A DNA stretch of 64,000 nucleotides from Anaerohalosphaera lusitana (lineage in GTDB: Bacteria; Planctomycetota; Phycisphaerae; Sedimentisphaerales; Anaerohalosphaeraceae): assembly GCF_002007645.1 (NCBI RefSeq), contig NZ_CP019791.1:3774593-3838592 (forward strand). The letters run 5' to 3'. The position numbers were made by a program, and so were the translations under genes. Shown one piece after another: positions 13,702 through 49,171 of the stretch. Under the pieces are notes generated by a model. The model saw only the letters and a program-made list of their open reading frames with translations. It did not search any database and had not been told where the DNA came from. Within the stretch, counting starts at the first letter, position 1. Every line of letters starts with the position of its first letter.

Positions 13702-14859
13702 ATGTCCAAAAAAAGACTGGTAAAATTGCGATTTCGCAAAACTAAGAGCCGTCGGGGAACCGGCGGTGCGTTCTTTTTAGATTTTAATAACCCTAAAACC
13801 GGAAAGCGTGTCCGAATCTCTCTCGGCCACGGCAGCTACGAGCGGGCAAAACGCCAGCAGCTCCGCAAGGAAGTGGAGCTGGGCAGCTTTGACGCGGGCG
13901 GGTGCGAGGGCGGCAGGCAGCGGCTCAGCGACATTATGATCGTGTACCTGCAGGCGAACAAGTCGATGGCGGCGATGACGCGTGACAAGACGATCAGGGC
14001 GTTTGATTACCTGATCGAGGTGGTCGGCGACATCATGCTCGAAAAATTCGACTACTCGCACGCCGAGGCGTTTCAGAATTTTTTCGTCGCCAAGGGCTTT
14101 GCCCCGCCGACGGTCAACAGCTACTGCAAGTCGATCTCGCCGGTGTTTTCGTGGGCGATCAGGCACCAGTGGATATTTGTAAATCCGTTCGTGTCGGTCA
14201 GCGGACTTCGCGAGGCGAAAGGCTTTGTCAGGGTCTACGAGCCGGCGGAGTTTGCCGCCCTTTGGCGGGTGGTCGATTCGGATCTGTGGCGGGCGAGGAT
14301 ACTGGCTGCAAAGACGGCGGGCCTGCGGCGGGCGGAAGTCTTGAATCTGTGCCGAGGCGACATCGACGAGCGAAGCGGAGTGATCCGTGTTCAGCCCAAG
14401 GCGAAGACGTCGACGACGTGGCGGTGGCGGATCAAGGATCATGATGCCCGCGAGGTGCCGTTGGTGCCGGAGCTGGCCGCCCTGCTCAAAAAGCTCGGCA
14501 ATGCCCTGGACGACGATCAGCCGTATCTGATGATCAGCGGGCATGTGTATCACAACAAGCTCGATGCGAGGATGCGAGGCAGGCTTTCCGATGTGGCACG
14601 TTTGTGCCCCGACTGGCAGTTCAGTGCGGAATTTTCGCAGCTTTGCAAGTCCGCGAAAATTTCAAACGCGACTTTCCATGACTTGCGGCGAACGGTGATC
14701 ACCGAGTGGCTCGAGTCCGGCCTGCAGCCTCACGAGGTGATGCAGCTCGCCGGTCACAGCAGCATCGAGACGACGATGAAATATTACACGGCGACTCGAA
14801 AAACACTGCTGGAAAAGGCCAACAAGGCGTCGAGTTTCGCCCTGGCGGGAGTGGCTTAA
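13702..14859 (+). CDS. Tyrosine recombinase / phage-type integrase (385 aa)
   Basis: The start at ATG 13702 is set by AAGGAGA at 13690-13696. The N-terminal arm-type DNA-binding region (residues 1-70, basic) is followed by a core-binding SAM-like domain (about 75-165) and the catalytic domain (about 175-370). Active-site residues are visible: first Arg in TAGLRRAEV (R209), HDLRR (H326 and R329), GHSS (H352), and the nucleophile in TTMKYYT (Y362). The gene points at the 3' end of tRNA-Pro 100 bp downstream, the usual arrangement for a tRNA-targeting integrase. Full length with no damage seen, so the element may be mobile. Confidence 0.95.
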   Translation: MSKKRLVKLRFRKTKSRRGTGGAFFLDFNNPKTGKRVRISLGHGSYERAKRQQLRKEVELGSFDAGGCEGGRQRLSDIMIVYLQANKSMAAMTRDKTIRAFDYLIEVVGDIMLEKFDYSHAEAFQNFFVAKGFAPPTVNSYCKSISPVFSWAIRHQWIFVNPFVSVSGLREAKGFVRVYEPAEFAALWRVVDSDLWRARILAAKTAGLRRAEVLNLCRGDIDERSGVIRVQPKAKTSTTWRWRIKDHDAREVPLVPELAALLKKLGNALDDDQPYLMISGHVYHNKLDARMRGRLSDVARLCPDWQFSAEFSQLCKSAKISNATFHDLRRTVITEWLESGLQPHEVMQLAGHSSIETTMKYYTATRKTLLEKANKASSFALAGVA

Positions 14860-14961
14860 AAGGGGCAAAAAAACACGTGTGCCAAAAAGTGCCGTTTTCG
14901 GCACACGCGAATCATTGTCGATCCAGAAGATAACTCCTGAATCCCCAACAAGTTACAAAAA

Positions 14962-15036
14962 TCGGGGCGACAGGACTTGAACCTGCGACCTCAGCACCCC
15001 CAGTGCTGCGCGCTAGCCAAACTGCGCCACGCCCCG
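14962..15036 (-). tRNA. tRNA-Pro (anticodon GGG)
   Basis: Read on the minus strand, the acceptor stem CGGGGCG pairs with CGCCCCG, the anticodon arm is CAGCA-CTGGGGG-TGCTG with anticodon GGG, the T arm contains GGTTCAAGTC, and the discriminator is A. CCA is not encoded. The 3' end faces the integrase gene, so this tRNA is the probable integration target and stays intact after insertion. Confidence 0.95.
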
Positions 15037-15230
15037 ATACAGGCGAGTAATTGTACCGGGTGGGTGGGGGCTTGACAATGCTTTTTTGCGCAAAAAGGCA
15101 TCTTTATCTAAGTCGTTGGATTCAAGTGACTTATATCAGTTTTTGCGAATCTGGAAGTTGGAGCTTAACTGAGGCTTTTATCATGTCGAAAGATAGATTG
15201 TAAAATCAGCCTACTATTCAGGACAGGGAA

Positions 15231-15704
15231 ATGATCGCAGAAAAAACACTTACCGAACCATTGTGGCAGGCAGCGGAAGAAGCGTTTAAGTGCATGATAA
15301 TGCTGGACTTAGATCGCGTTGATAAATTGGAAAAGCTCGATGAGAACACGCCCCGGATGGTGGGTTCGATAACGTTTATGGGGGCGCTGCAGGGTGCGGT
15401 GGTTGTGCAGTGTGATCTGGATACTGCCAGGATGGTCTCGCGGAGTATGCTGATGATGGGTGCGGAGGACGAGATAAGCGACGAGGAGGTCGAGGATGCG
15501 CTGGGCGAGGTGGTGAACCTTGTGCTGGGCGGATTTAAGTCCCGTATTGCAAATGACTTAGGCGAGATACAGATCTCTGTCCCGATGGTCATTCAGGCCA
15601 AGGATCCGTCGCCTGGAGCGGGTACCGGCGGTGAAGTGGCTGACGTATTTGTCAAATCCGGCGAGCATGAACTGCAGATGTCCGTAGTTTATAAGCAGAA
15701 ATAG
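15231..15704 (+). CDS. CheX-like chemotaxis phosphatase-domain protein (157 aa)
   Basis: The protein matches the CheX/CheC fold pattern: a mixed beta section (GSITFMGALQGAVVVQCD) and the family's E-x-x-N motif in LGEVVNLVLGG (E93, N96). CheX-type proteins dephosphorylate CheY-like response regulators. No chemotaxis or flagellar genes are nearby, so this may be an orphan acting on a stand-alone receiver protein. It is the first chromosomal gene beyond the tRNA and integration site. The ATG at 15231 follows a GACAGGGAAATG context with AGGG as ribosome site. Confidence 0.8.
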   Translation: MIAEKTLTEPLWQAAEEAFKCMIMLDLDRVDKLEKLDENTPRMVGSITFMGALQGAVVVQCDLDTARMVSRSMLMMGAEDEISDEEVEDALGEVVNLVLGGFKSRIANDLGEIQISVPMVIQAKDPSPGAGTGGEVADVFVKSGEHELQMSVVYKQK

Positions 15705-16191
15705 AAGCTCGTCAGAGGTCATTTTCGGACAGGTACGCCCTGCCCTTCTCTGGGCCGTAACAACCAGTTCATGCCAGATAACCACCTACACATCTTTCGT
15801 TACCAGGCCGGATATTACGGTACAAATGTCGATGCGGCTCTGGTTACAGGTGCGGATGTGAACTATGGGTAAAAGTACCAGATGGACACTTTGTAAATAA
15901 GACTTTGGGGCAAATCGGCTGATTTGGGCGATTTTTGGGGGTGCAAAAATGGGCAAAAGTAGGGTAAAAGCGCGCGTTTTGGGTATGAAAGTGGGGTGAA
16001 AAGGGGTGAAAAGTGACAAGGCATTTCCTACCAGTCAAGTAGGAGAATTTCATGGATATATCTCCGCCGGCGCGTGGGGAAAAGTACCGTAAAGACAGTT
16101 TCACCACGAAGGCGCGAAGGGCACGAAGAAAATCTAAAGGAAGCAAGATACAAGAGTAAGGAAGTCGCAATACAACTCTATTTTATGCTGG

Positions 16192-36896: not shown

Positions 36897-38060
36897 CTAT
36901 TTTTTGGGGTATTTGGCGAGGGTCTCTTTTATGTCGGGTAGCAGGATATCGGCCTGCCAGGGAAGCATGCCGACTTCTTCCACGAGGCGGTCAAAATCGC
37001 TGATGCGGTCACGTCCGATGTGGGTTAGAGTTGCGCGGGAGGCGATGATCTGGGGCGGGAGGTTTAGCTGTTCGCCCTTTTTGCGTGTGCGTTCGCGAAG
37101 GTCCTCGATGATCTGCTGACAGTATGGAATCGCAGGTGCGGACTTTTTGCGTTTTTGCTTGGCCACCATCTGGTCGGGTGGTGTACTCAGGGCCTGGTGG
37201 ACCGCATTTTCGAGGGCCGCACGGCGGGAGCCTCTGCAGTTGTCTGGGAGCAGGCCTGATTTGCGAATCGATGCGTGCGGGTGGGATGCGACCCAGTCGG
37301 CGAGCTTCAAAATATCCTTGTTGTGCATGAAGTGGAAGGCTGGGCGGTCGGCTTTGCGGGCCTCGTCGTTTCGCCAGTGCCAGATGTGCTTGACGAGGGT
37401 GAGTCGGAGCGGGTCTAGTTTTGAGGTGCCTTTTATGCGCCAGATGCGGTCGGGGTCGGGGGGTTCTTTTTCAGCGGTAGCGGAGCGTACCATCTTTTTG
37501 CAAGCCTGATCGTGCCATTCGAGACGGCCGAGCTGCTCGAGCTGGTTGTGCAGTTTTTCGGCGAGGACGTGGAGGTAATAGGTGTCGTCGCTTGCGTACT
37601 GGAGCTGGTTGGGGGTGAGGGGTCGTCGTGACCAGTCGGATTTCTGGCCGTGCTTGGAGAGGGATACGCCGCAGAAGTGTTTTATCAGTGCGACGAGGCC
37701 GAGCCTTTTGTAGCCGAGCAGTTGGGCGGCGAGCATAGTGTCGAAAACTGGGGCCTTCGTTTCGAAACCGAAGGAATTTTTGAGCATTCGCAGGTCGTAG
37801 CCGGCATCGTGGAGGATGAGTGTTTTATGGGCGAGGACCTGGAGGAACGGGTCAAGGTCCATGTCGGTGAGCGGGTCGACGATGTAGTTCTCTTCTTCTA
37901 TGGTGATCTGTATGAGACAGACCTTTTCGAAGTAGTGGTGCAGAGAGTCCGCTTCGATGTCGATGGCGATGCTTGGGGCGCGTTCGAGTGCAGGCAGCAC
38001 TTCGGCCATGCCTTCGTCTGTGTCTACGTATGTAAAATTTGTGTGCTCAACATCAGGCAA
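36897..38060 (-). CDS. rnd: Ribonuclease D (387 aa)
   Basis: A 3'-5' exoribonuclease for tRNA and structured-RNA maturation. The DEDDy catalytic residues are visible: AIDIEADS (D34, E36), HDAGYDLRM (D89) and YASDDTYYL (Y155, D159). An HRDC domain follows (about residues 210-300), then a second helical C-terminal region (330-387). Length is typical. The start overlaps the end of the RND pump gene by 8 bp, so it is translationally coupled to the efflux operon, an unusual partner. A weak internal promoter cannot be excluded. Confidence 0.92.
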   Translation of the reverse strand: MPDVEHTNFTYVDTDEGMAEVLPALERAPSIAIDIEADSLHHYFEKVCLIQITIEEENYIVDPLTDMDLDPFLQVLAHKTLILHDAGYDLRMLKNSFGFETKAPVFDTMLAAQLLGYKRLGLVALIKHFCGVSLSKHGQKSDWSRRPLTPNQLQYASDDTYYLHVLAEKLHNQLEQLGRLEWHDQACKKMVRSATAEKEPPDPDRIWRIKGTSKLDPLRLTLVKHIWHWRNDEARKADRPAFHFMHNKDILKLADWVASHPHASIRKSGLLPDNCRGSRRAALENAVHQALSTPPDQMVAKQKRKKSAPAIPYCQQIIEDLRERTRKKGEQLNLPPQIIASRATLTHIGRDRISDFDRLVEEVGMLPWQADILLPDIKETLAKYPKK

Positions 38061-41000
38061 CGTTCGCTTCTTCCTGTTGGTTCACTGTGAGTGCTTTTTT
38101 GAGTTTTTTGGGCATTTTCTTTATGTCTTCCAGAATCATATACAAAGATGGGACAAGAATCAAGGTAATCATTGTTGCGAAGGCGACACCGAATGCGAGG
38201 CTTACGGCCATCGGGATGAGGAACCGTGCCTGGAGGCTTTGTTCGAGCATCATGGGGACGAGGCCGAGGAAGGTGGTCATGGTAGTCAGCAGGATGGGTC
38301 TGAAACGGCGTGTGACCGCGTCTTTGATGACCTGCATGAGCTTGATTCCTTCGCCGCGTTCTCGGTTGATAAGGTCGATCATGATGAGTGAGTCGTTCAC
38401 TACGATGCCGGAAAGCGCGATTATACCGAAGAACGAGAGCAGACTGAGGTTGAAGCCCATGAGCAGGTGGCCCAGTACCGCTCCGACGATGCCGAAGGGG
38501 ATTGCGGACATTACGATAACTGGCTGGACGTAGCTTTTGAACTGAACTGCGAGCAATGCATAGATAGCGAGCAGCGCGATGGGGAATGCTGCGAACATCG
38601 TACCGAACGAATCCTGCATTTCGCGTTTTTCGCCGGCGTAGCGCCATTTGAGGCCCGGATGCTTTGCGATGAGTTCGGGAAGGACATTACGGCCAAGATT
38701 TTCGTTAATTTCGTTTGCGTTCGCAACGGTTTCATCTACGTCTGCGGTGACGTTTACGACTCGCATGCGATCGGCACGCTGGATAGTTGCGTAGCCCTGG
38801 CCGTATTCTACGTTGGCAACCGTTTGGAAAGGTATTTCTGTGTTATCGGGCAGGCGGATGCGCATTGTTTCGATGTCTTCGAGGCTGGTGCGTTCTTCGT
38901 AGGGGTAGCGGACCATTACACGGATGTCGTGGCGGCCTCGCTGGATTCGCTGTGCCTCTTCGCCGTAAAAGCCCTGGCGGACCTGGGAAGCAAGGTCGGC
39001 GAGGGTGAGCCCGAGTGTACGGCCCTGAGAGGTGAGGGAGAGCTTAATTTCGTCCTTGCCGGGTTCGAAGCTGTCTGAGATATCTTTTACACCGGCGTAG
39101 TCGTCGAGGATTTGTTTGAGCCGGTTCGAAGCGGCAAGCAGCATATCGAAATCGTTGTGGGCGAGTTCGATGTTGATTTTTTCGCCGGCGCTCATGATCT
39201 CGGCCTGGTATTCGAGTGAAGACACGCCGGGGACCTCGCCAACGAGCTCACGCCACCTGTTGAGCAGCTCTTTGGAAGAGACTTCGCGGTATTCGCCGCC
39301 GATAAGTTCGATGTTTACTTCCGCGAGGTGCGCTGCTGAGATGCTGTCCATGCTGGCGCTGCCTGGGCCGCCACCTTCGCGTTTAATGGGCTGGTCGCCG
39401 ATGGTGGTACCGACGTGTTTGTACAGGGAGCGAGCACCTTCGGGTCGTTTTGCGTCAAATTCTTTGCGGACCTGCTGGGCTGCGGATTCTAGTCTTTCGA
39501 CGACCTCGATCGTGCGTTCGACAGGTGTGCCCAGGGGCATTGTGACGTCGGCGATCATGTTGTCGGCTTCTATTTCATCGAATAGAACAATCTTTATGAA
39601 TCCGCCGCCTATGAGCCCGAAGATGGCGAGCAGTATTGCGAATGCTCCTGCGAGTGTGGCGTAACGGCAGCGGACGGCGAGAGCTGCGAAACGTTCGAAG
39701 GGGCCATTGATGAACGATTGCAGTGCGCGGCCGATAGCGGCGTGCATTCTCTTTATGGGGTGGTGTTTTGTGGGTTTGTCGCTGATCTTAGCACCGGCGA
39801 GATGAGCGGGCAGGATCAGGAAGGCCTCAATGAGAGAAACCGCCAGGACGGCGATGACGACGATAGGGATGACACGCATGAACTTGCCCATGACGCCGGA
39901 GACGAAGAGCAGAGGTGCGAATGCGAACTGGGTGGTGAGGACGGCCATGGTGACTGGGGCGGCCATTTCGCGGACACCCTTGATGGCGGCCTGTGTGGGT
40001 TTCATGCCACGCTGACGGTATTCGAAGATATTTTCGCCTACGACGATGGCGTCATCGACGACGATACCGAGAGACATGATGAATGCGAAGAGCGAGATCA
40101 TGTTTATGGATATGTCGAAAGCCGGGAGCATGCAGAAGGCACCGAGGAAGGATATGGGTATTCCCAGGGTTGTCCAGACAGCGAGTTTCGGATCGAGGAA
40201 GAGGGTGAGGCTGAGGAAGACGAGGATCAGACCCATTACAGCGTTCTTATTGAGAAGCTGTATCCTGGATCGGAGCATTTCGGAGGTGTCTTCCCATATC
40301 GCGAGTGAGAGGCCCGCGGGAAGGTTCTTTTCTTTTTCCGCTATGTAGTCCTTGACTGCACCGGCGACTTCGAGGGCGTGCTGTTCGCCGACCCGGAAGA
40401 TGCGGACCTGGACCGCCCTTTCGCCGTCAAATCGGGTGTATAGTTCGGTGTCGTCAAAGCCGTCGATTACGTTGGCGATGTCGCCGAGGCGGATAGAGGT
40501 GCCGTCGGGCTGTGAGAGTAGGATAATGTTTTCAAATTCGCGACCGGTGTAGCGCTGGCCCTTGGTGCGTATGAGTATTTCGCCGCCTTTGGTTTTTACG
40601 GAGCCGCCGGGGATGTCGAGGGATGACCGGCGGACGACATTTGCGACGTCGCTGAAGCTCAGGGAGTAGCGGCGGAGGTCCTCTTCGGAGACTTCGATGG
40701 ATATTTCGTAGGGACGGACGCCGCGGACCTCTACGTAGCTTATGTTGTCCAATGCTGTGAGGTCGTCCTGGATGTCGTCGGCGATTTCCTTGAGGGTGCG
40801 TTCGGTAGCGTCGCCGTAGAGGACGATGGTTATGACCTGTCGACGGGCCTTGATCTCGGTAATGATTGGCTTTTCGGTTTCTTCGGGGAAGGTGATGATG
40901 CGGTCGACTTCGGCTTTTACGTCGTCGAGGACCTCGGTGGTGTCGGCGTATTCCTCGACTTCTATGGAGACGGTGCCGGATCCTTCGGCGGCGGAGGCGT

Positions 41001-41265
41001 TTAGTCGTTTTATGCCTTCGATGCCTGCGACGGCTTCTTCAACGCGTAGGATGACGCCCTGCTCGACTTCGTCCGGGGAGGCACCGAGGTATGGAACGGT
41101 GACGGTGATCAGGTCGAGACTCATCTCGGGGAAGAGCTCGACTTTGATGGTGGCGATGGTGATGATGCCGGAGGCGATGATGAGGACCATCAGGAGGTTT
41201 GCAGCAACGTGGTTGCGTGCGAACCAGGCTAGGGGGCCCTTTTTGTATGTGGTATCGTTTTTCAC
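38053..41265 (-). CDS. RND-family efflux pump, AcrB/HAE1-like (1070 aa)
   Basis: Twelve-TM architecture: TM1 at about residues 18-42 (after KGPLAWFARNHVAANLLM), a large periplasmic loop, TM2-6 about 340-500, a second loop, and TM7-12 about 880-1040. The proton-relay aspartate pair is in MSLGIVVDDAIVVGEN (TM4), as in AcrB. It pumps drugs, lipids or other hydrophobic compounds with the membrane-fusion and outer-membrane factors encoded upstream; the ATGA overlap with the MFP gene shows tight coupling. The substrate is unknown; heavy-metal (CusA-type) signatures are not evident. Confidence 0.93.
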   Translation of the reverse strand: MKNDTTYKKGPLAWFARNHVAANLLMVLIIASGIITIATIKVELFPEMSLDLITVTVPYLGASPDEVEQGVILRVEEAVAGIEGIKRLNASAAEGSGTVSIEVEEYADTTEVLDDVKAEVDRIITFPEETEKPIITEIKARRQVITIVLYGDATERTLKEIADDIQDDLTALDNISYVEVRGVRPYEISIEVSEEDLRRYSLSFSDVANVVRRSSLDIPGGSVKTKGGEILIRTKGQRYTGREFENIILLSQPDGTSIRLGDIANVIDGFDDTELYTRFDGERAVQVRIFRVGEQHALEVAGAVKDYIAEKEKNLPAGLSLAIWEDTSEMLRSRIQLLNKNAVMGLILVFLSLTLFLDPKLAVWTTLGIPISFLGAFCMLPAFDISINMISLFAFIMSLGIVVDDAIVVGENIFEYRQRGMKPTQAAIKGVREMAAPVTMAVLTTQFAFAPLLFVSGVMGKFMRVIPIVVIAVLAVSLIEAFLILPAHLAGAKISDKPTKHHPIKRMHAAIGRALQSFINGPFERFAALAVRCRYATLAGAFAILLAIFGLIGGGFIKIVLFDEIEADNMIADVTMPLGTPVERTIEVVERLESAAQQVRKEFDAKRPEGARSLYKHVGTTIGDQPIKREGGGPGSASMDSISAAHLAEVNIELIGGEYREVSSKELLNRWRELVGEVPGVSSLEYQAEIMSAGEKINIELAHNDFDMLLAASNRLKQILDDYAGVKDISDSFEPGKDEIKLSLTSQGRTLGLTLADLASQVRQGFYGEEAQRIQRGRHDIRVMVRYPYEERTSLEDIETMRIRLPDNTEIPFQTVANVEYGQGYATIQRADRMRVVNVTADVDETVANANEINENLGRNVLPELIAKHPGLKWRYAGEKREMQDSFGTMFAAFPIALLAIYALLAVQFKSYVQPVIVMSAIPFGIVGAVLGHLLMGFNLSLLSFFGIIALSGIVVNDSLIMIDLINRERGEGIKLMQVIKDAVTRRFRPILLTTMTTFLGLVPMMLEQSLQARFLIPMAVSLAFGVAFATMITLILVPSLYMILEDIKKMPKKLKKALTVNQQEEANVA

Positions 41266-42668
41266 TGCTGATCTTCCTTCTTATCAGAATTGTCAGTGAG
41301 CCTGGGTCGGATCTTCATGTTGTCGGTGACCGCTTCGAGGGAGTCGGTTATGACGATCGTGCCGTCGGGGATGCCCGCGGATATATATGCGTTTTCCTTG
41401 TCCATGCGTATGATGTCGACTTCTTTGATGTGCAGGCGGCTGTCGTTAGCGATCCAGAGCTCATTGCGTTTGTGCAACGCGGTGCGGGGGACGGGGATGA
41501 CGTTTTTGAGCTGTTTGCCTATTATGTCGACGTCGACGAATACGCCGGGCTGGAGAGGTGGTCGGCCGTTGGCGTTTTCGAAGGGCTGGGGGACCTGGAC
41601 GACGACGTTGACCATGCGGGAGCGGGGGTCGATCCGGCCCTCGGTGCGGACCACCCGGCCGTCCCAGGTGTGGGTTCCGCCTGCGAAATTTGCAGTTACT
41701 ACGGCGGGTGAACCTGTGTCATCGCTTTGACCGGCGAGGGGGACGTCGAACCACTGGAGCTGTTTGTCTTCGAGCGGGACGGTAATTTCGACTGTGTCGG
41801 TGCCGTAGACGGTCGCGATGGACTGGCCCGCGGTTACGTACTGGCCTATGTCCACGGATTCTTCGAGGACGCGGCCGTTGAACGGCAGTGAGATAGTGGT
41901 TCGTTCGAGGTTGAGTTTTGCGTTTTCGAGCTGGGCCTTGGCGGCTTTGAGTGAGGCTTGGGCCTCGGCGATCTGGGGCTTTCGCAGGACTAGGGGTGAG
42001 GTTGGTTCTTTGCCTGGATTGAGCTGCTCCCACTCACGGCGGGCGACTTCGGCTTCGGCCTGTTCGCGTTCGAGGGCGACCTCGGCTCGTGCAACGGCTG
42101 CCTGTGCGTTCTGGACGGCATTGCGGTAATCGCGCTGGTCGATCTTAACGAGCGTTTCATCGGCACCGAAGAAGCCGCCGTTGACGAAGTTGGGGTGCAA
42201 TTCGGTGATGCTTCCCGATACCTGGGGGATGATCTTGACGGTTGTTTTGGCCTGGACGGTGCCGAAGCCTGAGACGGTGACGGTGATGTCTTTCGCGTGG
42301 ACCTTTTGGGCCTGGAGCAGAGGTGCGACGACTTCGGTTTCTACCTTTTCGGGGGCCTTTTTCATTGAGACCAGCATGCGGGCAGCGGTAAGACCGATGG
42401 CTATGAAGATGATGGCGGCGGATGCGTGTATGAGCATGGGTCTGCGTCTGCCGTTCCTGCCGTAGTATAAATACCAGCAGAGGAAGAAGATCAAAAGTGC
42501 GGCAGCGATGGCGATGGGAAGGCCGATCGCGAATACATTCAACTGCGGAAGCGGTTTCTTTTTGAGTCCCATAAAGAGGCCGAAGACCGCACCACCGATC
42601 AGCAGCGCCATAAACAGGAAGTACAGATGGGCGAGAACAGTTTTGATCGTCTGAGTTAATGTTTTCAT
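41262..42668 (-). CDS. Membrane-fusion protein of the RND pump (468 aa), with extra N-terminal TMs
   Basis: The HlyD/AcrA-type core is clear: a lipoyl half-motif (VKIIPQVSGSITELHPNFVN), an alpha-hairpin (about residues 175-265, AEVALEREQAEAEVARREWE then ASLKAAKAQLENAKLNLERT), the second lipoyl half (FNGRVLEESVDIGQYV) and beta-barrel domains. Unusually, three hydrophobic segments (about 15-35, 45-66 and 79-97) precede it, where the family normally has one anchor or lipid tail. It links the pump (next gene, 4-bp overlap) to the outer-membrane factor (3-bp gap upstream). Confidence 0.9.
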   Translation of the reverse strand: MKTLTQTIKTVLAHLYFLFMALLIGGAVFGLFMGLKKKPLPQLNVFAIGLPIAIAAALLIFFLCWYLYYGRNGRRRPMLIHASAAIIFIAIGLTAARMLVSMKKAPEKVETEVVAPLLQAQKVHAKDITVTVSGFGTVQAKTTVKIIPQVSGSITELHPNFVNGGFFGADETLVKIDQRDYRNAVQNAQAAVARAEVALEREQAEAEVARREWEQLNPGKEPTSPLVLRKPQIAEAQASLKAAKAQLENAKLNLERTTISLPFNGRVLEESVDIGQYVTAGQSIATVYGTDTVEITVPLEDKQLQWFDVPLAGQSDDTGSPAVVTANFAGGTHTWDGRVVRTEGRIDPRSRMVNVVVQVPQPFENANGRPPLQPGVFVDVDIIGKQLKNVIPVPRTALHKRNELWIANDSRLHIKEVDIIRMDKENAYISAGIPDGTIVITDSLEAVTDNMKIRPRLTDNSDKKEDQQ

Positions 42669-42671
42669 GGA

Positions 42672-44141
42672 TTAATTTCCTTTGCCTGTTTCTTTGTTTG
42701 CTACAGGATCTATGATTTCAGTAATCTGCCAATCGCCGCCGAGGGCAAGGTGGAGGTCGATACGTGCCTGCCAGAGATTGCCCTTGGCGAGGGCGAACTG
42801 GTTTTCTGCCTGGCGTCTTCTGCGTTCGGTTTCGAGCACGAGCAGAATATTATCAACGCCGCTGACGTAGCGCTGGCCGGCGAGTTCTTCAGCTTTGAGT
42901 GCTTCATCGAGCTGGGTTCTCAGTTCGGCGATACGGGTCCGCTGGTTCTTGAGGGTGACGAGGGCATCTTCGACTTCCTTTATGGCGGTAAGGATCGTGC
43001 CTGAATAATTTGCGGCTGCCTGTTCGACGCGGGCTTTTGCTGCGTCTACGCCTGCGACGAGCTGGCCGCCCTGGAAGATCGGTGCTGCGAGGCTGATGAT
43101 GCCGGAGTAGACCTGGTTTTGGGCCTCTGTGAGCTGGCGGAAAGATGAGGAGTTATAGCCGAAGGAGCCTGTGAGTGTGAAGTCGGGGAGCATCTGTGCG
43201 ATGTTGACGCCGACGCGTTCGGTTGCGGCTGCGACCTGCATTTCGGCCTGGCGGACGTCGGGGCGCTGTTCGAGGAGGTCGATAGGCAGGCCGAGGGGGA
43301 CGGGTGAGAGGTCGGGGAGATCGTCAAGGGTTTTCGTCAATTCTTCGGTTGTGCCGGCTGGACGGCCCAGCAGGACATCGAGACTGTGGTACTGCAGTTG
43401 GAGGGCTTGCTGGATGGACGGTTCGGCGGCTTTGGATGAAGCGAGGTTTTCGCGGGCGAGCCGGACGTCGAGAGGGGTTACGAGGCCCGATTCGTAGCGG
43501 CGGTTTATGATCTCGAGATTTCGCTGCCAGTTAGCGGTATTGGCACGGGCGATGTCGAGCAGACGCTGGTTTGTGGCGATCTGTACCCGGGTTCTTATGA
43601 CCTGTGCGATAATCGCGTGGGCGAGGGAATAGTGTGCGTGGGTGGTGGAGAGCAGGTCCGCGTATGCGGCCTGTTCGGCTCGGCGGAGTCTGCCGAAGAT
43701 GTCGGCGATGTAGGTTATGTTTATGTCCTGGGAGTAGTCGGTCGTGAGGATGGAACCGCCGAAACCAAAGGTATTGAGTGAGCGTTTGGCTCTGAGGCGG
43801 TCGGCGTTGTATGATATCTGTGGCCAGCGTGCACCGTGTGCCTGGCGGAGGATGGCCTGGGATTCGATAACGCGGGCGGCGGCTGATTTGAGATCGTAGT
43901 TTTCTTCGAGAGCGAGCCGGACGAGCTTTTCGGTTACGGGGTCGCCGAAATTCTGCCACCAGGTTACTGGCTCGGGGAGCTGGTTGGGATCGTGCCATTC
44001 GGCGGGGACGGCGTTGTAGGAACCTGCTGTATCGGCTGGAGTTTCGGGCCGTTCGTAATCGGGGCCCACGGTACAGCCTGTGAGGAGCAAGCCAATGGCG
44101 GCTGTTAGAGCAAGAGCAAATTTTGTGGATTCGCTAGTCAT
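42672..44141 (-). CDS. Outer-membrane factor lipoprotein, NodT/OprM type (489 aa)
   Basis: ATG 44141 is chosen: AAAGGATC precedes it and the product starts with a lipoprotein signal, LLLTGC (lipidated Cys about residue 22), followed by TVGPDYERPE, the NodT/OprM hallmark. Two OEP (TolC-like) helical repeats follow (about 60-250 and 270-465). Longer upstream frames run through the TetR gene and are less likely. It forms the outer-membrane channel of the tripartite pump and overlaps the TetR gene end by 8 bp. Confidence 0.92.
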   Translation of the reverse strand: MTSESTKFALALTAAIGLLLTGCTVGPDYERPETPADTAGSYNAVPAEWHDPNQLPEPVTWWQNFGDPVTEKLVRLALEENYDLKSAAARVIESQAILRQAHGARWPQISYNADRLRAKRSLNTFGFGGSILTTDYSQDINITYIADIFGRLRRAEQAAYADLLSTTHAHYSLAHAIIAQVIRTRVQIATNQRLLDIARANTANWQRNLEIINRRYESGLVTPLDVRLARENLASSKAAEPSIQQALQLQYHSLDVLLGRPAGTTEELTKTLDDLPDLSPVPLGLPIDLLEQRPDVRQAEMQVAAATERVGVNIAQMLPDFTLTGSFGYNSSSFRQLTEAQNQVYSGIISLAAPIFQGGQLVAGVDAAKARVEQAAANYSGTILTAIKEVEDALVTLKNQRTRIAELRTQLDEALKAEELAGQRYVSGVDNILLVLETERRRRQAENQFALAKGNLWQARIDLHLALGGDWQITEIIDPVANKETGKGN

Positions 44142-44838
44142 TTGCCGATCCTTTCGTGTTTTCGACGCAGCCGCGGATTCCTGCTGCTGAGAAATGGACC
44201 ACGTGGTCGATGGTTCGTTCAAGGTCGAGCGCGGGCCAGTCGGTGTAGCCTGTCTCCGAGAGGAAAGTTTTCATCTGGAGTGCATAAACGAGCTGACCGA
44301 CTACCGACTGAATGCAGAAGTAGGAAACGTCCGTGCTAATCTGAGGAAAAACCCTTTTAAGGGCCTCATGAGCAGCATCTCTTACGGGACGCATGCCTTC
44401 GTCAATGCATAGTCCCGGAGGCAGTCTTTTTTCGTCCAATTCTCGCTGCATAAGCCTCATAAACATTCTGCCGCCTCCGTTTTCCAGAAGTGGGTCAATG
44501 AATACACGGCAGAAGGTTCTCAACAGTTCTTCAAGGGTAAATCCATGCTCACGTTTAAGCAGCCCTTCAAGAGCGGCGACTCTTACCTCTGTCAGGTTTC
44601 CTATAACACTTCTGAAAGCTTCGACGTAAAGATTCTGCTTCGAGCCAAAGTAGTAGTTTACGGATGCCACATTGCAGTCGGCTTCTTCGGTTATTGCACG
44701 GACAGAGCTTGCTCGAAAGCCTTTTTCGGCAAAATGTTGTCGGGCGATTTCAAGTATACGACAACGAGTGTCATCGTTGGACTGGTCAATTATTTCTGGT
44801 TTTCTTGCCAATTTGGAAACACCTACTTTCAAACACAT
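44134..44838 (-). CDS. TetR/AcrR-family repressor of the efflux operon (about 234 aa)
   Basis: The N-terminal HTH (ILEIARQHFAEKGFRASSVR followed by AITEEADCNVASVNYYFGSK) is typical TetR; the longer C-terminal domain with GGRMFMRLMQRE resembles the CecR/DUF1956 group. The start is uncertain: ATG 44838 directly follows an operator palindrome, whereas TTG 44811 (MARKPEIID) with AGTAGGTG upstream gives a more typical N-terminus; longer frames to 44886 run over the promoter. As first gene of the operon it should control itself, the pump genes and, by coupling, rnd. Confidence 0.9.
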   Translation of the reverse strand: MCLKVGVSKLARKPEIIDQSNDDTRCRILEIARQHFAEKGFRASSVRAITEEADCNVASVNYYFGSKQNLYVEAFRSVIGNLTEVRVAALEGLLKREHGFTLEELLRTFCRVFIDPLLENGGGRMFMRLMQRELDEKRLPPGLCIDEGMRPVRDAAHEALKRVFPQISTDVSYFCIQSVVGQLVYALQMKTFLSETGYTDWPALDLERTIDHVVHFSAAGIRGCVENTKGSAND

Positions 44839-44879
44839 GTTTAATACGAACATATTAAACGTTTGTTTGAGGGCGTCAA
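44839..44879 (-). promoter_or_regulatory. Promoter and palindromic operator of the tetR-efflux operon
   Basis: GTTTAAT (44839-44845) and ATTAAAC (44854-44860) form a 7-8-7 inverted repeat. On the minus strand TTGACG (44874-44879) and TAATAT (44852-44857) are 16 bp apart, so the operator covers the -10. A second TTGACT lies just upstream. This fits autorepression by the TetR protein. Confidence 0.75.
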
Positions 44880-45115
44880 GAGTCAACGTGAGCTTTTTTA
44901 CTAAATTTTTATAAAGTTATATCAGGCAAGTACTTAAAGCCGAACTCTGACAACAATTAAAAGACACCGCCTATCTGTATCTTTAGAAAAATATATAAAT
45001 AGCAAGAAAGTGTTAGTTAAAGATGAGATAGGCAAAGCAGAAGTTTGTCGGTGGGATTATTCTCTTAGCTGGTTTGGAGAAATTAACATTCTGGAATTTC
45101 GAAAGAGAATTGGCC

Positions 45116-46741
45116 ATGACTGGACGTGAGCGAGTAAAGGCAGCGATCAAGTGTGAAAAGACCGACAGGACGCCGTGGGTTCCTTTTGTGGGAAGCCATG
45201 CGGGAGCCCTTCTGGGGATCGGAGCGGACGAGTATCTCAAAAGCGCTGACATGATAGTAAAAGGAGCGGGTGAGGCAGTTAAACGGTATAAGCCGGACGG
45301 GCTGCCTGTGACGTTCGATCTGCAGATAGAGGCGGAGGTGCTCGGCTGCGGGCTGAAATGGGCCGAGGACAACCCCCCTGCCGTCGTGGACCATCCGCTT
45401 GGCAACGGGACCAAGCTGGAGCAGTTGAAGGTGCCGGGTGCCGGCGAAGGCAGGATCGGTGTTGTAATGGAGGCCGCGAGGCGGATACGAGAGGAGCATC
45501 CGGATGTTGCTGTGTACGGGCTGATCACGGGGCCGTTTACGCTGGCGCTGCATCTGCTGGGGACTGACATCTTCATGAAGATGTTTGATGATCGTGAGTA
45601 TGTGATGGAGCTGCTGGGGTTCTGCCGGGATGTGTGCAAGGCGATGAGCAGGTACTACGTTGAAGCGGGCTGTGATGTGATCGCGGTGGTGGATCCGATG
45701 ACCAGTCAGATCGGGCCGGACCAGTTTACCGAGTATGTGAGTCCGTTCGCGAAGGAAGTTTTTGACAATGTTCGGGAGCTGGGGGCGTTGAGTTCGTTCT
45801 TTGTCTGCGGGCATGCACAGCAGAACATCGAGGTGATGTGTGAGTGCGGGCCGGACAATGTTTCGATTGACGAGAATATACCGCTGGACTATGTGCGGGA
45901 CGAGTGCGTTAAGCGCGGGATCAGCTTTGGCGGCAATATGCAGTTGACGACGGTGCTGCTGCTGGGAAGTCCGCTGGATGCGCAGAAGAACGCGGTAGAG
46001 TGCATGGAGCTGGGCGGGGATAAAGGGTTCATACTCGCGCCTGGGTGTGATCTGCCTTATGCGACTCCGGCGGAGAACCTTGAGGCGGTTGTCGAAGTCG
46101 TCGAGGATGAGTACAAGCGGGACGTTGTCAAGACGATGGACGAAGAGGCGGCTGCGGGCGAGAAGCTGGATATGTCGCAGTACGGGCAGAGCGACAAGGT
46201 GATCGTGGACATTATCACGCTGGACTCGGAGGCGTGTGCGCCTTGCCAGTATATGGTGGACGCGGTGCGGAAGGTCGCGCCGGAATTTGACGGCCTTGTG
46301 GAATGGCGGGAGCATAAGATCAAGCAGAAAGATTCGCTGGTGCTGATGACGTCGCTTATGGTGCGGAACGTGCCGACGATATGTATCGACGGGAAGATCA
46401 CGTTCGTTTCGCGGATACCGCCTAAGAATGAGCTTATCGAGGCGATACAGAAGCGGATCAACGAGAAGATGCGGCGGAGACTCAGCCAGCGGCGAGCCAC
46501 GCTGAGCGTGGTTGGGAGCGACGACGAGAAGGCGCAGCAGGCGATGGAGAACGCAAAGCGGGCGGTCAAGGAGCTGGGCGCGGATGTGGATGTCGAACGG
46601 CTGAAGGATAAAGATTCGGTGCGCGATTACGGGGTCGGCAGTGACGGTGATGTGGCGGTTGTGCTTACGCGGCGGCAGGTAAAGGCGGCGGGCGAGGTGC
46701 CGGAGACGATCGTTATTAAGGAATGGCTGAAAGAGCTATGA
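45116..46741 (+). CDS. URO-D/MtaA-like methyltransferase fused to two thioredoxin-like domains (541 aa)
   Basis: ATG 45116 follows GAAAGAGA by 7 bases; an in-frame TTG at 45074 is weaker. Residues 1-345 form a uroporphyrinogen decarboxylase-superfamily barrel of the corrinoid methyltransferase (MtaA/MtbA/CmuA) type. The zinc-site region is altered: FVCGHAQQN supplies C231 and H233 where H-x-C-G is usual, with C311 in LAPGCDLP. Residues 360-445 are a thioredoxin fold with C374-A-P-C377 and a cis-Pro before T421 (VRNVPT); 460-541 is a second, Cys-free thioredoxin-like domain. It is coupled by ATGA overlap to a CobW-type GTPase. A redox-controlled methyl transfer or metal/cofactor handling role is inference; heme synthesis is unlikely. 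Confidence 0.8.
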   Translation: MTGRERVKAAIKCEKTDRTPWVPFVGSHAGALLGIGADEYLKSADMIVKGAGEAVKRYKPDGLPVTFDLQIEAEVLGCGLKWAEDNPPAVVDHPLGNGTKLEQLKVPGAGEGRIGVVMEAARRIREEHPDVAVYGLITGPFTLALHLLGTDIFMKMFDDREYVMELLGFCRDVCKAMSRYYVEAGCDVIAVVDPMTSQIGPDQFTEYVSPFAKEVFDNVRELGALSSFFVCGHAQQNIEVMCECGPDNVSIDENIPLDYVRDECVKRGISFGGNMQLTTVLLLGSPLDAQKNAVECMELGGDKGFILAPGCDLPYATPAENLEAVVEVVEDEYKRDVVKTMDEEAAAGEKLDMSQYGQSDKVIVDIITLDSEACAPCQYMVDAVRKVAPEFDGLVEWREHKIKQKDSLVLMTSLMVRNVPTICIDGKITFVSRIPPKNELIEAIQKRINEKMRRRLSQRRATLSVVGSDDEKAQQAMENAKRAVKELGADVDVERLKDKDSVRDYGVGSDGDVAVVLTRRQVKAAGEVPETIVIKEWLKEL

Positions 46742-47646
46742 GTGATCGGATAGACGTATACATCCTGACCGGGTATCTTGGTGCGGGCAAGACGACGGTG
46801 CTGAATCATCTGCTGGAGGACGGCGGATTGAAGGATCGAGAGGTCGCGCTGGTGATCAATGAGTTCGGCAAGGTCGGCGTGGACGGTTCGCGGGTGCGGG
46901 ATGGAGATTATGCAAAGTTCGAGATCAACAAGGGGAGCATATTCTGCATCTGCACGAAGACGGAGATGCTGAAGGCATTCACGGAGATCGCGGAGAATGC
47001 TCGGCCGGACGCGGTGATCGTGGAGGCGACGGGAATCGCGGAGGTGCGGGATTTTGAGAATATTCTGGCGGTGCCCGAGCTGCTGGCGAAATTCCAGGTG
47101 CGGGCTAACGTGTGTGTTGTGGATGCGCTGAACTACAGCAAGGTCGCGCCGCATCTGCGGGTGGTGAACGGGCAGGTAGGCCTTGCGGACGGGATCGTGA
47201 TAAACAAATGCGATTTGGTGAGCGATGAGGCTGTGGGGGTGGTGCGGAAGATCGTGAGTGGTGTGAACGGCCGGGCGAAGATCGTCACGGCAGAGCGGGG
47301 AAAGCTGCTGAGCGGGTTCGTGGACGGGCTGGTGCATGCGAAGACGGATGGTGAGGCGGTGGATGAGAGGCCTGCGGATGTTTATGCTGTTTCGTTTCGT
47401 GATGCGGGGAGGATGGATCGTGAGGCGTTTGAGAGGGTTACAGATGAGCTGGGTGAGAGATTGCTGAGGTTGAAGGGGAACATCGACTTTGGGGACGGGG
47501 CGGAGTATGTGGAGGTAGTTTACGATCAGGTGAGCCGGGAGAAGGCGTGCGGAAAGCTGGGGGCGGGGACGACGTTTACGGCGATAGGATGGAAGGTGGA
47601 CAAGGATGAGCTGCGGGGGATGTTTGAGGGGTGTGTGACGGGCTAA
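46738..47646 (+). CDS. CobW/COG0523-type G3E GTPase (302 aa)
   Basis: Walker A GYLGAGKTT (12-20), INEFGKVGVDG switch (40-50), VEATG (96-100, in the Walker B region) and NKCD (156-159) define a G3E P-loop GTPase. The metal-binding CxCC of the family is reduced to C70-I-C72-T. A smaller C-terminal CobW_C-like domain follows (about 220-300). Such proteins load metals or cofactors, or reactivate metalloenzymes, with GTP. The ATGA overlap with the methyltransferase-thioredoxin fusion indicates that the two work together, with this one probably inserting or protecting the partner's metal or corrinoid. Confidence 0.85.
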   Translation: MSDRIDVYILTGYLGAGKTTVLNHLLEDGGLKDREVALVINEFGKVGVDGSRVRDGDYAKFEINKGSIFCICTKTEMLKAFTEIAENARPDAVIVEATGIAEVRDFENILAVPELLAKFQVRANVCVVDALNYSKVAPHLRVVNGQVGLADGIVINKCDLVSDEAVGVVRKIVSGVNGRAKIVTAERGKLLSGFVDGLVHAKTDGEAVDERPADVYAVSFRDAGRMDREAFERVTDELGERLLRLKGNIDFGDGAEYVEVVYDQVSREKACGKLGAGTTFTAIGWKVDKDELRGMFEGCVTG

Positions 47647-47878: not shown

Positions 47879-49171
47879 ATGAGAATTTGCCTGCACTACG
47901 GTGAAGGTGAGGTAAGGGTCGATATTCCTGAGGAGAATTTGCAGGATGTGATTCGGCCCTGGAGCGCTGGAGGTGAAGGCAACTGCCTGGCGATGGCGGA
48001 GAGAATGCTCGGGAGAGTGGAGGGGGAGAATTTTTCTGAATCCGTAGCGGGGCGGAATGTTTGTGTTCTGATTGCGGACGGCACGCGGGATTTTCCATTG
48101 GATGATGTTTTGCCGGGACTGGTGCATCTGCTGATGGGGGCGGAGAGGGTGAGCTTCGGGATCGCGACGGGGACGCACGATGCGGATACGGAGGCGAACG
48201 GTCGAATCATCGAACAGATCAGGCGGATAGCAGAGCGGGAGGGTCTGGTGCATTACGATATTTTCGTGCATGACTGCGAGGGGGCGGAGTTTGCGGAGCT
48301 GGGGGTGACGAGTCGGGGGACGCCGGTGCGGGTGAACGAGAAGGTTCTGGGGGCGGATGTTTATGTTGTGCTGTCGGATGTCAAGCCGCACTATTTCGGG
48401 GGGTATTCGAATCCGGTTAAGTATTTTCTGCCGGGGATGTGCGCGTATGAGACGGTGGAGAAGAATCATGCGCTGGCGCTGGATGAGCTGTCGACGTTCT
48501 GTGTGCATCCGTGGTGCGGGGACGAAGGCAGGCGGGGTAATCCTTTGGCGCGCGATCAGTTGGAGGGGATGGAGATGATCGTGGGCGGGCGCGAGGTGTG
48601 GGCGGTTGCGATTGTCAGCAGCGGCGGAAAGGCGCTGTGGGGGGAGTTCGGGCTGGCGGAGGAAGTTAGTCGGGAGGCGTTCGAGGTGAGTGATGAGCGG
48701 AACGTGCGGGAGGTGGGCAAGGCGGATCGGCTGATCGTGTCGCCGGGCGGGCTGCCGAACGATGTGGATCTGTATATTTCGCAGCGGGCGCTGGAGCTGA
48801 CGGGGCAGGCTGTACGGGACGGGGGCGAGGTGCTGTTCGTGTCAGCGTGTCCGGGCGGAGTGGGGGCGGAGCGGACGCGGGCGAATTTTTACGACAGGTT
48901 GACGCAGCCGCTGGAGGATGTGCTGGCGAGCATCGACGAGGAGTATGTGCTTTTTGCGCACAAGCCTTACAAGTTCGCTCAGATGATAAGGCGGCTGAGG
49001 AAGCTGTGGGTTTATTCGGAGATGGATGATGAGACGATACGCCGGGCGCACATGGAGCCTGCGGGGGATGTGCAGAAGGTGGTGGACGAGTGGATACGGC
49101 AGGAGCCGGGGTGCAGGATAACTGTTGTGGACGGGGCGAATAAACTTGCGCTGCGTGCAGTGGAAGATTGA
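47879..49171 (+). CDS. LarA-family nickel-pincer racemase/epimerase (430 aa)
   Basis: The active-site pattern of lactate racemase is kept: DGTRDFP (D67, T69, R70), GTHDADT (H100), HYFGGYSNPVKYFLPG with H171 and K181 (the lysine that holds the nickel-pincer nucleotide), and NHAL (H197). The protein inverts an alpha-hydroxy acid centre. LarB, LarC and LarE, which make the cofactor, are not in the window. Many LarA relatives act on substrates other than lactate, and the GTHDADT and DGTRDFP variants suggest so here. It follows repeat copy C, with no operon partner. Ribosome site weak. Confidence 0.88.
   Translation: MRICLHYGEGEVRVDIPEENLQDVIRPWSAGGEGNCLAMAERMLGRVEGENFSESVAGRNVCVLIADGTRDFPLDDVLPGLVHLLMGAERVSFGIATGTHDADTEANGRIIEQIRRIAEREGLVHYDIFVHDCEGAEFAELGVTSRGTPVRVNEKVLGADVYVVLSDVKPHYFGGYSNPVKYFLPGMCAYETVEKNHALALDELSTFCVHPWCGDEGRRGNPLARDQLEGMEMIVGGREVWAVAIVSSGGKALWGEFGLAEEVSREAFEVSDERNVREVGKADRLIVSPGGLPNDVDLYISQRALELTGQAVRDGGEVLFVSACPGGVGAERTRANFYDRLTQPLEDVLASIDEEYVLFAHKPYKFAQMIRRLRKLWVYSEMDDETIRRAHMEPAGDVQKVVDEWIRQEPGCRITVVDGANKLALRAVED

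Follow-up and report, generated by a model that had tools for sequence, protein, structure and literature searches.

We analyzed a 64,000-nucleotide stretch of the Anaerohalosphaera lusitana genome (referred to as the window; contig NZ_CP019791.1, positions 3,774,593 to 3,838,592 of the forward strand), which carries at positions 45116 to 47646 two overlapping genes, one encoding an MtaA-like methyltransferase barrel fused to two thioredoxin-fold domains (URO-D-Trx-Trx') and the other encoding a CobW-type GTPase. Homologs of this pair in other phyla adjoin genes for corrinoid-dependent methyl transfer and for sugar metabolism, and we consider it somewhat probable that the two genes form part of a system that removes O-methyl groups from methylated sugars by means of a corrinoid and without oxygen. 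The features of the pair are as follows (window coordinates; aa, amino acids).

45116..46741, + strand: URO-D-Trx-Trx' fusion, MtaA-like methyltransferase barrel with two thioredoxin-fold domains, 541 aa (open reading frame and translation, Pfam/NCBIfam, orthologs, AlphaFold)
45116..46105, + strand: URO-D/MtaA-fold barrel, aa 1-330 (PF01208, 215.7 bits; TIGR01463, 190.4 bits)
45800..45808, + strand: F229-V230-C231 in the place of the MtaA zinc H-x-C, His replaced by an invariant Phe (alignment to 4ay7)
46046..46048, + strand: C311 (LAPGC), counterpart of the third zinc ligand (alignment to 4ay7; invariant in homologs)
46202..46465, + strand: thioredoxin-fold domain 1, Thioredoxin_3 type (PF13192, 45.5 bits, aa 371-444)
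46235..46246, + strand: CAPC redox motif, C374-C377 (translation; homolog alignment)
46487..46738, + strand: degenerate, Cys-free thioredoxin-like domain 2 (1ilo match at aa 465-515; homolog alignment)
46738..46741, + strand: ATGA, overlap of the stop and start codons of the two genes (open reading frame coordinates)
46738..47646, + strand: COG0523/G3E (CobW-type) GTPase, 302 aa, intact P-loop (PF02492, 126 bits; PF07683, 28.5 bits)
46933..46953, + strand: GSIFCIC motif in place of the family GCxCC metal motif (homolog alignment)

Composition and conservation of the gene pair

Pfam assigns aa 3-330 of the fusion to URO-D (PF01208, E=1e-63) and aa 371-444 to Thioredoxin_3 (E=8e-12; 45.5 bits against a cut-off of 24.8), while the Cys-free tail (aa 465-515) matches the MTH895 thioredoxin-like protein (PDB 1ilo, E=9e-4). 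In the GTPase, both cobW (126 bits) and CobW_C (28.5 bits) exceed the Pfam cut-offs. Among solved structures, the Methanosarcina mazei methyltransferase 4ay7 lies nearest to the fusion as modeled by AlphaFold (pLDDT 87.6; TM 0.90 on target, rmsd 2.1), and YjiA to the modeled GTPase (pLDDT 92.2). The open reading frames, the ATGA overlap and the domains are all as a preliminary description, made from the sequence alone, had given them. Nor is the barrel an ordinary uroporphyrinogen decarboxylase, the finding that would have contradicted that description: a HemE of heme synthesis that happens to carry unrelated fused domains would fall in the same Pfam superfamily, but the HemE model scores only 75.8 bits against a cut-off of 302.95, the best structural match is a methanogen methyltransferase, and the same genome holds 17 further URO-D matches. 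We therefore rule HemE out, the chance of it being negligible. The fusion also stays under the cut-off of the MtaA/CmuA family model TIGR01463 (190.4 vs. 235.4 bits).

Zinc ligands in the MtaA family are His-Cys-Cys. Alignment to 4ay7 places F229 at the zinc-His position, and F229, C231 and C311 are invariant in a 36-row alignment of homologs; the barrel keeps F-x-C..C in 52 pairs from several phyla. The shifted zinc site proposed earlier (C231, H233 and C311) is thus retained in part: both cysteines are conserved, but at H233 many homologs of the 52-pair comparison carry N, Y, F or Q instead, and because of this variability we rejected it as a zinc ligand and regard the shifted site as doubtful. 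Thioredoxin domain 1 is tightly conserved, with T368, C374, A375, P376, C377 and the cis-Pro P420 invariant in the 36-row alignment and DS-x-x-CAPC present in 51 of 52 loci (the sole exception, L082, reads AS-E-S-CAPC). Thioredoxin domain 2 is missing in short-form homologs (part of the Bacteroidota, and genomes G042 and G046), and a Raymondbacteria homolog (L066, 10001-11617) keeps CEAC where the window protein is Cys-free, so that on alignment domain 2 looks like a decayed copy. In the GTPase, S67, F69, C70 and C72 are invariant (32 aligned sequences), and GSxFCxC stands instead of GCxCC in all 52 pairs, although CxCC has been described as conserved in all COG0523 proteins (Haas et al., 2009; PMC2770081). 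The metal motif is therefore altered, as noted before, but by replacement rather than by shortening to CxC. A type 1 mlp-like cluster of Acetoanaerobium noterae (L136) offers the contrast, as its barrels read HICG..C and its GTPase GCICC; in the cases seen, loss of the zinc His and loss of CxCC go together, the contrast coming from this one locus.

Among 59 genomes of the order (own genome included), the fusion is present in 12, at 55-69% identity, and the GTPase lies directly downstream in all 12 (41-49% identity, own copy apart). Neither gene occurs at that level in the other 47, of which G038 has only two more distant COG0523 matches. The chance of this joint pattern would be about 1 in 10^12 if the genomes were independent, which they are not; common inheritance or joint transfer of the two genes is probable. 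Scanning genome contigs yielded 50 further loci with orthologs at 53-69% identity in Planctomycetota, Bacteroidota, Spirochaetes, Raymondbacteria, Lentisphaeria, and Calditrichota, and a plasmid collection added a locus of the gut Firmicute Subdoligranulum variabile (L135). The GTPase alone as query against that collection returned more than 1400 matches to ordinary COG0523 proteins and was uninformative. Conservation of the same pair across several phyla argues against chance association. In 52 loci, distances between fusions correlate with those between GTPases (r=0.81, a value reached in 0 of 2000 permutations), although shared inheritance would give such a correlation likewise. The GTPase is missing despite enough flanking sequence in five loci (L060, L065, L088, L089, and L098).

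Gene neighborhoods of the homologs

Although the window locus has no adjacent corrinoid or sugar gene, such operon linkage is present in many Bacteroidota loci. By Pfam identities, within five genes of the fusion in 36 Bacteroidota loci, a corrinoid protein and the GTPase are each found in 32, a Met_synt_B12-like (B12-reactivation) protein in 22, a second URO-D barrel in 18, a homocysteine S-methyltransferase in 12, and RACo in 7. The second barrel changes from lineage to lineage, and the core is constant. The earlier statement that no corrinoid protein is close therefore holds for the window and its genome neighborhood but not for the homologs, and the expectation that homologs would lie apart from known corrinoid methyltransferase sets is largely contradicted by these counts. 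Since the Bacteroidota homologs adjoin a corrinoid methyltransferase set, we regard the pair as part of a methyl-transfer pathway and not as a free-standing redox sensor. The preliminary description had proposed the latter, in the form of a redox-sensing pair that handles metal or corrinoid at the expense of GTP and does no methyl transfer of its own. The lost zinc His, the attached thioredoxin, the metallochaperone family of the GTPase and the stand-alone pairs of many planctomycete genomes would fit that proposal, but the barrel fold and C231/C311 are retained, identity remains at 53-69% across phyla, and the genes sit inside methyltransferase operons. Metal or corrinoid handling is right in outline, while redox sensing found no supporting evidence, and as a whole we consider the proposal improbable.

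Several neighborhoods point to sugars. In two operons (L169 and L171), galactokinase comes first, followed by a URO-D barrel, the corrinoid protein, URO-D-Trx, the GTPase, a Met_synt_B12-like protein and RACo. RhaT and L-rhamnose mutarotase (RhaM) occur in L091, L094, and L096, with an alpha-L-fucosidase in L091, and a total of 109 neighbors include nine AraC regulators, five sulfatases, three alpha-amylases, and also GH95 and SusD. The S. variabile locus (OY725850.1; L135, 1559-2569, and L180, 1351-6116) encodes the fusion, a GTPase with GSIFCAC and a second URO-D barrel, together with apparent sugar ABC transport genes, two apparent glycosidases, and a protein resembling, by eye, a biotin-synthase-like radical SAM protein, which had no Pfam match at 1e-6.

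A more specific link is offered by L093 and L102, which by their records belong to different families and in which genes for a P450, a ferredoxin of the 2Fe-2S type and its reductase adjoin the core, a trio orthologous to the known oxidative demethylase of 6-O-methyl-galactose. Both P450s match PDB 6g5o/6g5q at 637 and 631 bits, the next structure scoring 158-165 bits. Such a trio turns 6-O-methyl-galactose into galactose and formaldehyde, and zinc alcohol dehydrogenase (ADH) and esterase genes lie near that oxidative demethylase system (PMC10033563); L093 carries both of these genes. Among 14 pair-bearing genomes, a 6g5o-type P450 is found only in these two (genome sizes 6.4-6.9 Mb), as a single copy about 4-6 kb from the fusion gene. 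Among 295 genomes of the order of L102, the fusion is present in 13 and the P450 in 2, both within the 13, an overlap with a chance of about 0.002 if the two were independent.

Other neighborhoods differ. L078 (3813-7049) and L179 (2799-6035) encode homologous 1078-aa proteins beside the core, and the Pfam census of their neighbors gave Pyr_redox_2, Fer2_BFD and DAO members resembling sarcosine/proline oxidase subunits, which suggests other substrates for some versions of the system. The pair could then be a general, substrate-neutral core for corrinoid methyl transfer from N-methyl or S-methyl compounds, depending on the lineage. The occurrence of several types of substrate-side barrel, the sarcosine-oxidase-like genes of L078/L179, the hydantoinase of L074, and the PocR-type (PocR-AraC) regulator of L081 with its relatives in L119 and L125 would all agree with this, but most of the identifiable specific neighbors are sugar-related, and we consider it unlikely. 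In the planctomycete L119 (9979-14697; G015:C38), a corrinoid protein directly follows the GTPase, and the homolog of the L081 regulator lies upstream.

Two kinds of barrel and the corrinoid system of the order

The operon-linked second barrels mostly carry H-x-C..H (one type, in L073 and L100, has H-x-C..C), in contrast to F-x-C..C in the fusion. URO-D O-methyltransferases are described as replacing one or both Cys ligands, the S-methyltransferases being His-Cys-Cys (PMC10418091). In a tree of 45 barrels, the sugar-linked ones separate from the MtaA-like, mlp and thioredoxin barrels with support of 100/99; those with thioredoxin make up a single clade (100/99) on the MtaA side, where their placement is not firm because of several long branches, and most URO-D paralogs of the window genome group with the sugar-linked barrels. 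TIGR01463 scores agree, at about 147-190 bits for the fusion and 44-83 bits for the sugar-linked barrels. Based on ligands, tree split, and these scores, we infer that the variable barrel is the substrate-side methyltransferase (MT1) and the thioredoxin barrel the acceptor-side methyltransferase (MT2).

A thiol-type barrel beside corrinoid genes could also serve folate-independent methionine synthesis or salvage, in which the fusion would take or give the methyl group of a methyl-sulfur compound via the corrinoid protein, with homocysteine as acceptor and the sugar neighbors as incidental. This would be in keeping with the homocysteine S-methyltransferase and Met_synt_B12-like genes counted above (12 and 22 of 36 Bacteroidota loci), with the apparent split methionine synthase of the order described below, with the position of the fusion on the thiol side of the tree, and with the proposal that the related type 1 mlp clusters act in methyl-sulfur/selenium metabolism and methionine salvage (PMC10418091). 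However, the second barrel varies and mostly has the O-type ligands H-x-C..H, the homocysteine enzyme is missing in two thirds of the loci, and the galactokinase, RhaM and demethylase P450 trio beside the operon would be left unexplained. We regard this alternative as rather unlikely, and prefer sugar O-demethylation.

The window genome (4.25 Mb, single contig) has 18 URO-D matches. Its sole corrinoid protein with a full B12-binding module stands alone at 660.7 kb (L115, 8734-9357); a second, weaker B12-binding_2 match at 2121.6 kb, in a 260-aa frame, is perhaps a regulator. RACo is encoded once, at 2614.9 kb, and homocysteine methyltransferase twice. Sixteen further URO-D loci of this genome have as neighbors AraC (five), GH2 (three), fucosidase (two) and GH109 (two), besides sugar transporters. 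A random-locus control of 75 genes gave one each of GH109, GH125, and GH127 and three sulfatases, with no AraC or GH2 among the 25 families listed. Parts of the system are thus present in the window genome, but scattered. A Pfam census of 79 neighbors in planctomycete loci showed no third recurring gene, only URO-D and B12-binding (three each).

The corrinoid protein is found in 59 of 59 order relatives and RACo in 53 of 59, with or without the pair, and both were rejected as partners that track it. For the same reason they probably serve something older, a split methionine synthase. Such an order-wide enzyme, with RACo as activator, is what the scattered parts look like: a homocysteine S-methyltransferase domain occurs order-wide in frames of about 620-690 aa, the window-genome parts lie at 660.7 kb, 752 kb, 2157 kb, and 2615 kb, and full-length MetH, by its Met_synt_B12 domain, is present in only 6 of 59 relatives, in a pattern not clearly related to that of the pair. 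To this older corrinoid system, the pair would add an outlet.

A candidate pathway for anaerobic sugar demethylation

Going further than membership in such a system, we see about an even chance that the pair marks a new B12-dependent, oxygen-free pathway of sugar O-demethylation, with 6-O-methyl-galactose as the first substrate, in Bacteroidota, Planctomycetota, and some gut Firmicutes. In this pathway, swappable sugar-specific URO-D barrels would feed a constant core, defined as the corrinoid protein, the thioredoxin-tethered methyltransferase without the zinc His, and the GSxFCxC GTPase. The domain content, the conserved pairing, the corrinoid, reactivase and sugar neighbors and the split of the tree are observations; we infer the following steps, their acceptor and, for the window genome, the use of distant MT1 barrels and the distant corrinoid protein. 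A substrate-specific barrel (MT1, H-x-C..H) would move the methyl group of an O-methyl-sugar such as 6-O-methyl-galactose to the cob(I)amide of the stand-alone corrinoid protein. The thioredoxin-fused barrel would then shift it from methyl-cob(III)amide to a thiol, for which homocysteine, sulfide and a low-molecular thiol are candidates; thiols are reported to accept methyl groups from cobalamin O-demethylases in vitro (PMC10946705). The tethered CAPC thioredoxin might, as a guess, keep the C231/C311 site or the acceptor thiol reduced. The GTPase would act as a G3E chaperone dedicated to loading or repairing the metal or corrinoid site, and RACo or the Met_synt_B12-like protein would re-reduce Co(II). 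A metallochaperone-type role has been proposed for COG0523 proteins generally (PMC2770081), and by analogy a client-specific chaperone function, for metal or for corrinoid, is probable for this GTPase.

Several observations weigh against this interpretation. The window and most planctomycete loci lack an adjacent corrinoid, reactivase or sugar gene, and the corrinoid protein at 660.7 kb is order-wide, including genomes without the pair, and probably has a role in methionine synthesis as well. Glycosidases by themselves are weak evidence, given how common polysaccharide loci are in these genomes. L078 and L179 carry the sarcosine-oxidase-like Fer2_BFD/DAO genes, and L074 a hydantoinase and an Nramp-like transporter. 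What supports the MT1/MT2 assignment is barrel variability, the ligands, and a tree in which several branches are long. In G114, P450 and fusion lie on separate contigs, each with an AraC gene of the same family alongside. Finally, the P450 comparison depends on 6g5o, which we take to be the carbohydrate-demethylating P450 of Zobellia galactanivorans.

Among known systems, MtaA/MtbA (4ay7) and the MtaA/CmuA family (TIGR01463) share with the fusion the barrel fold, 26% identity, both Cys ligands of the zinc site, and the corrinoid-protein partner, the last of these found in operons of the homologs of the fusion. The fusion differs by the invariant Phe in place of the zinc His, the fused thioredoxins, the absence of a coenzyme M pathway, and its TIGR01463 score below the family cut-off. 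Type 1 mlp clusters of anaerobes likewise combine several URO-D barrels, a corrinoid protein and a Ram/RACE-type activator (Kountz and Balskus, PMC10418091), and a COG0523 GTPase can accompany them, as in L136. However, mlp barrels have His-Cys-Cys and no thioredoxin, and GCICC is the motif of the L136 GTPase, in contrast to F-C-C with thioredoxin and GSxFCxC here, and sugar genes replace the selenium/sulfur genes. No type 1 mlp set (Mlp2, Mlp3, corrinoid protein, Ram/RACE) was found near the pair in the window genome; the Bacteroidota loci do have corrinoid genes and some RACo genes, but with different barrels. COG0523 subfamily 13 GTPases have been reported beside MtaA-type corrinoid methyltransferases (Haas et al., 2009; PMC2770081), a likeness by genomic association in the homologs, but with CxCC instead of GSxFCxC. 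Acetogen corrinoid O-demethylases (such as OdmB/VdmB) also use an MT1, a corrinoid protein, an activator and a second methyltransferase; their substrates are aryl methyl ethers, and tetrahydrofolate accepts the methyl group (PMC10418091). Here, the thioredoxin-fused thiol-type barrel would take the place of the folate methyltransferase, and none of the latter was recognized in the homolog loci. The oxidative 6-O-methyl-D-galactose demethylase (PMC10033563), linked to the core in L093 and L102, performs on the same sugar the net step proposed for the pair, but this known route needs oxygen and makes formaldehyde, whereas that of the pair would use B12 chemistry without oxygen.

COG0523 GTPases with MtaA-type methyltransferases (PMC2770081) and multi-URO-D corrinoid clusters (PMC10418091) were therefore known already. 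For the thioredoxin-fused barrel and the GSxFCxC motif we found no description in the open-access literature, nor, in the same literature (most subscription journals being outside it), a corrinoid route for anaerobic sugar O-demethylation; the earlier judgment that the combination fits no described pathway stands, none that matches having been found. How anaerobic bacteria demethylate 6-O-methyl-galactose from porphyran has been described as not elucidated, a mechanism awaiting discovery for which the porphyran loci have no suspect gene nearby (PMC12316285). The pair provides the best candidates we found for part of an anaerobic demethylation route of algal and plant sugars, and the galactokinase operons, together with the two lineages in which the P450 demethylase adjoins this core, make them named and testable ones. 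If true, the pathway would link methylated algal sugars to B12 and to the production of methylated thiols in anoxic sediments and possibly the gut. The joint loss of the zinc His and CxCC, set against the H-C-C barrels and GCICC of L136, also offers a test case for client recognition by COG0523 proteins.

Besides the pair, the window has a homolog of LarA-type nickel-pincer racemases directly downstream (47879-49171, + strand), which is closest to the LarAH5 malate racemase model but below its cut-off (213.9 vs. 462 bits); it is missing from all other 50 loci and was dropped as a part of the system. On the other side, an efflux set (RND pump, membrane-fusion protein, outer-membrane protein) with a CecR/TetR-type regulator (38053-44886, - strand) is transcribed away from the pair and looks unrelated to it. 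At about 14000-16000 of the window, the GC skew shifts sharply: before, it is near zero or negative, after that it is +0.2 to +0.4 and remains high as far as the window end.

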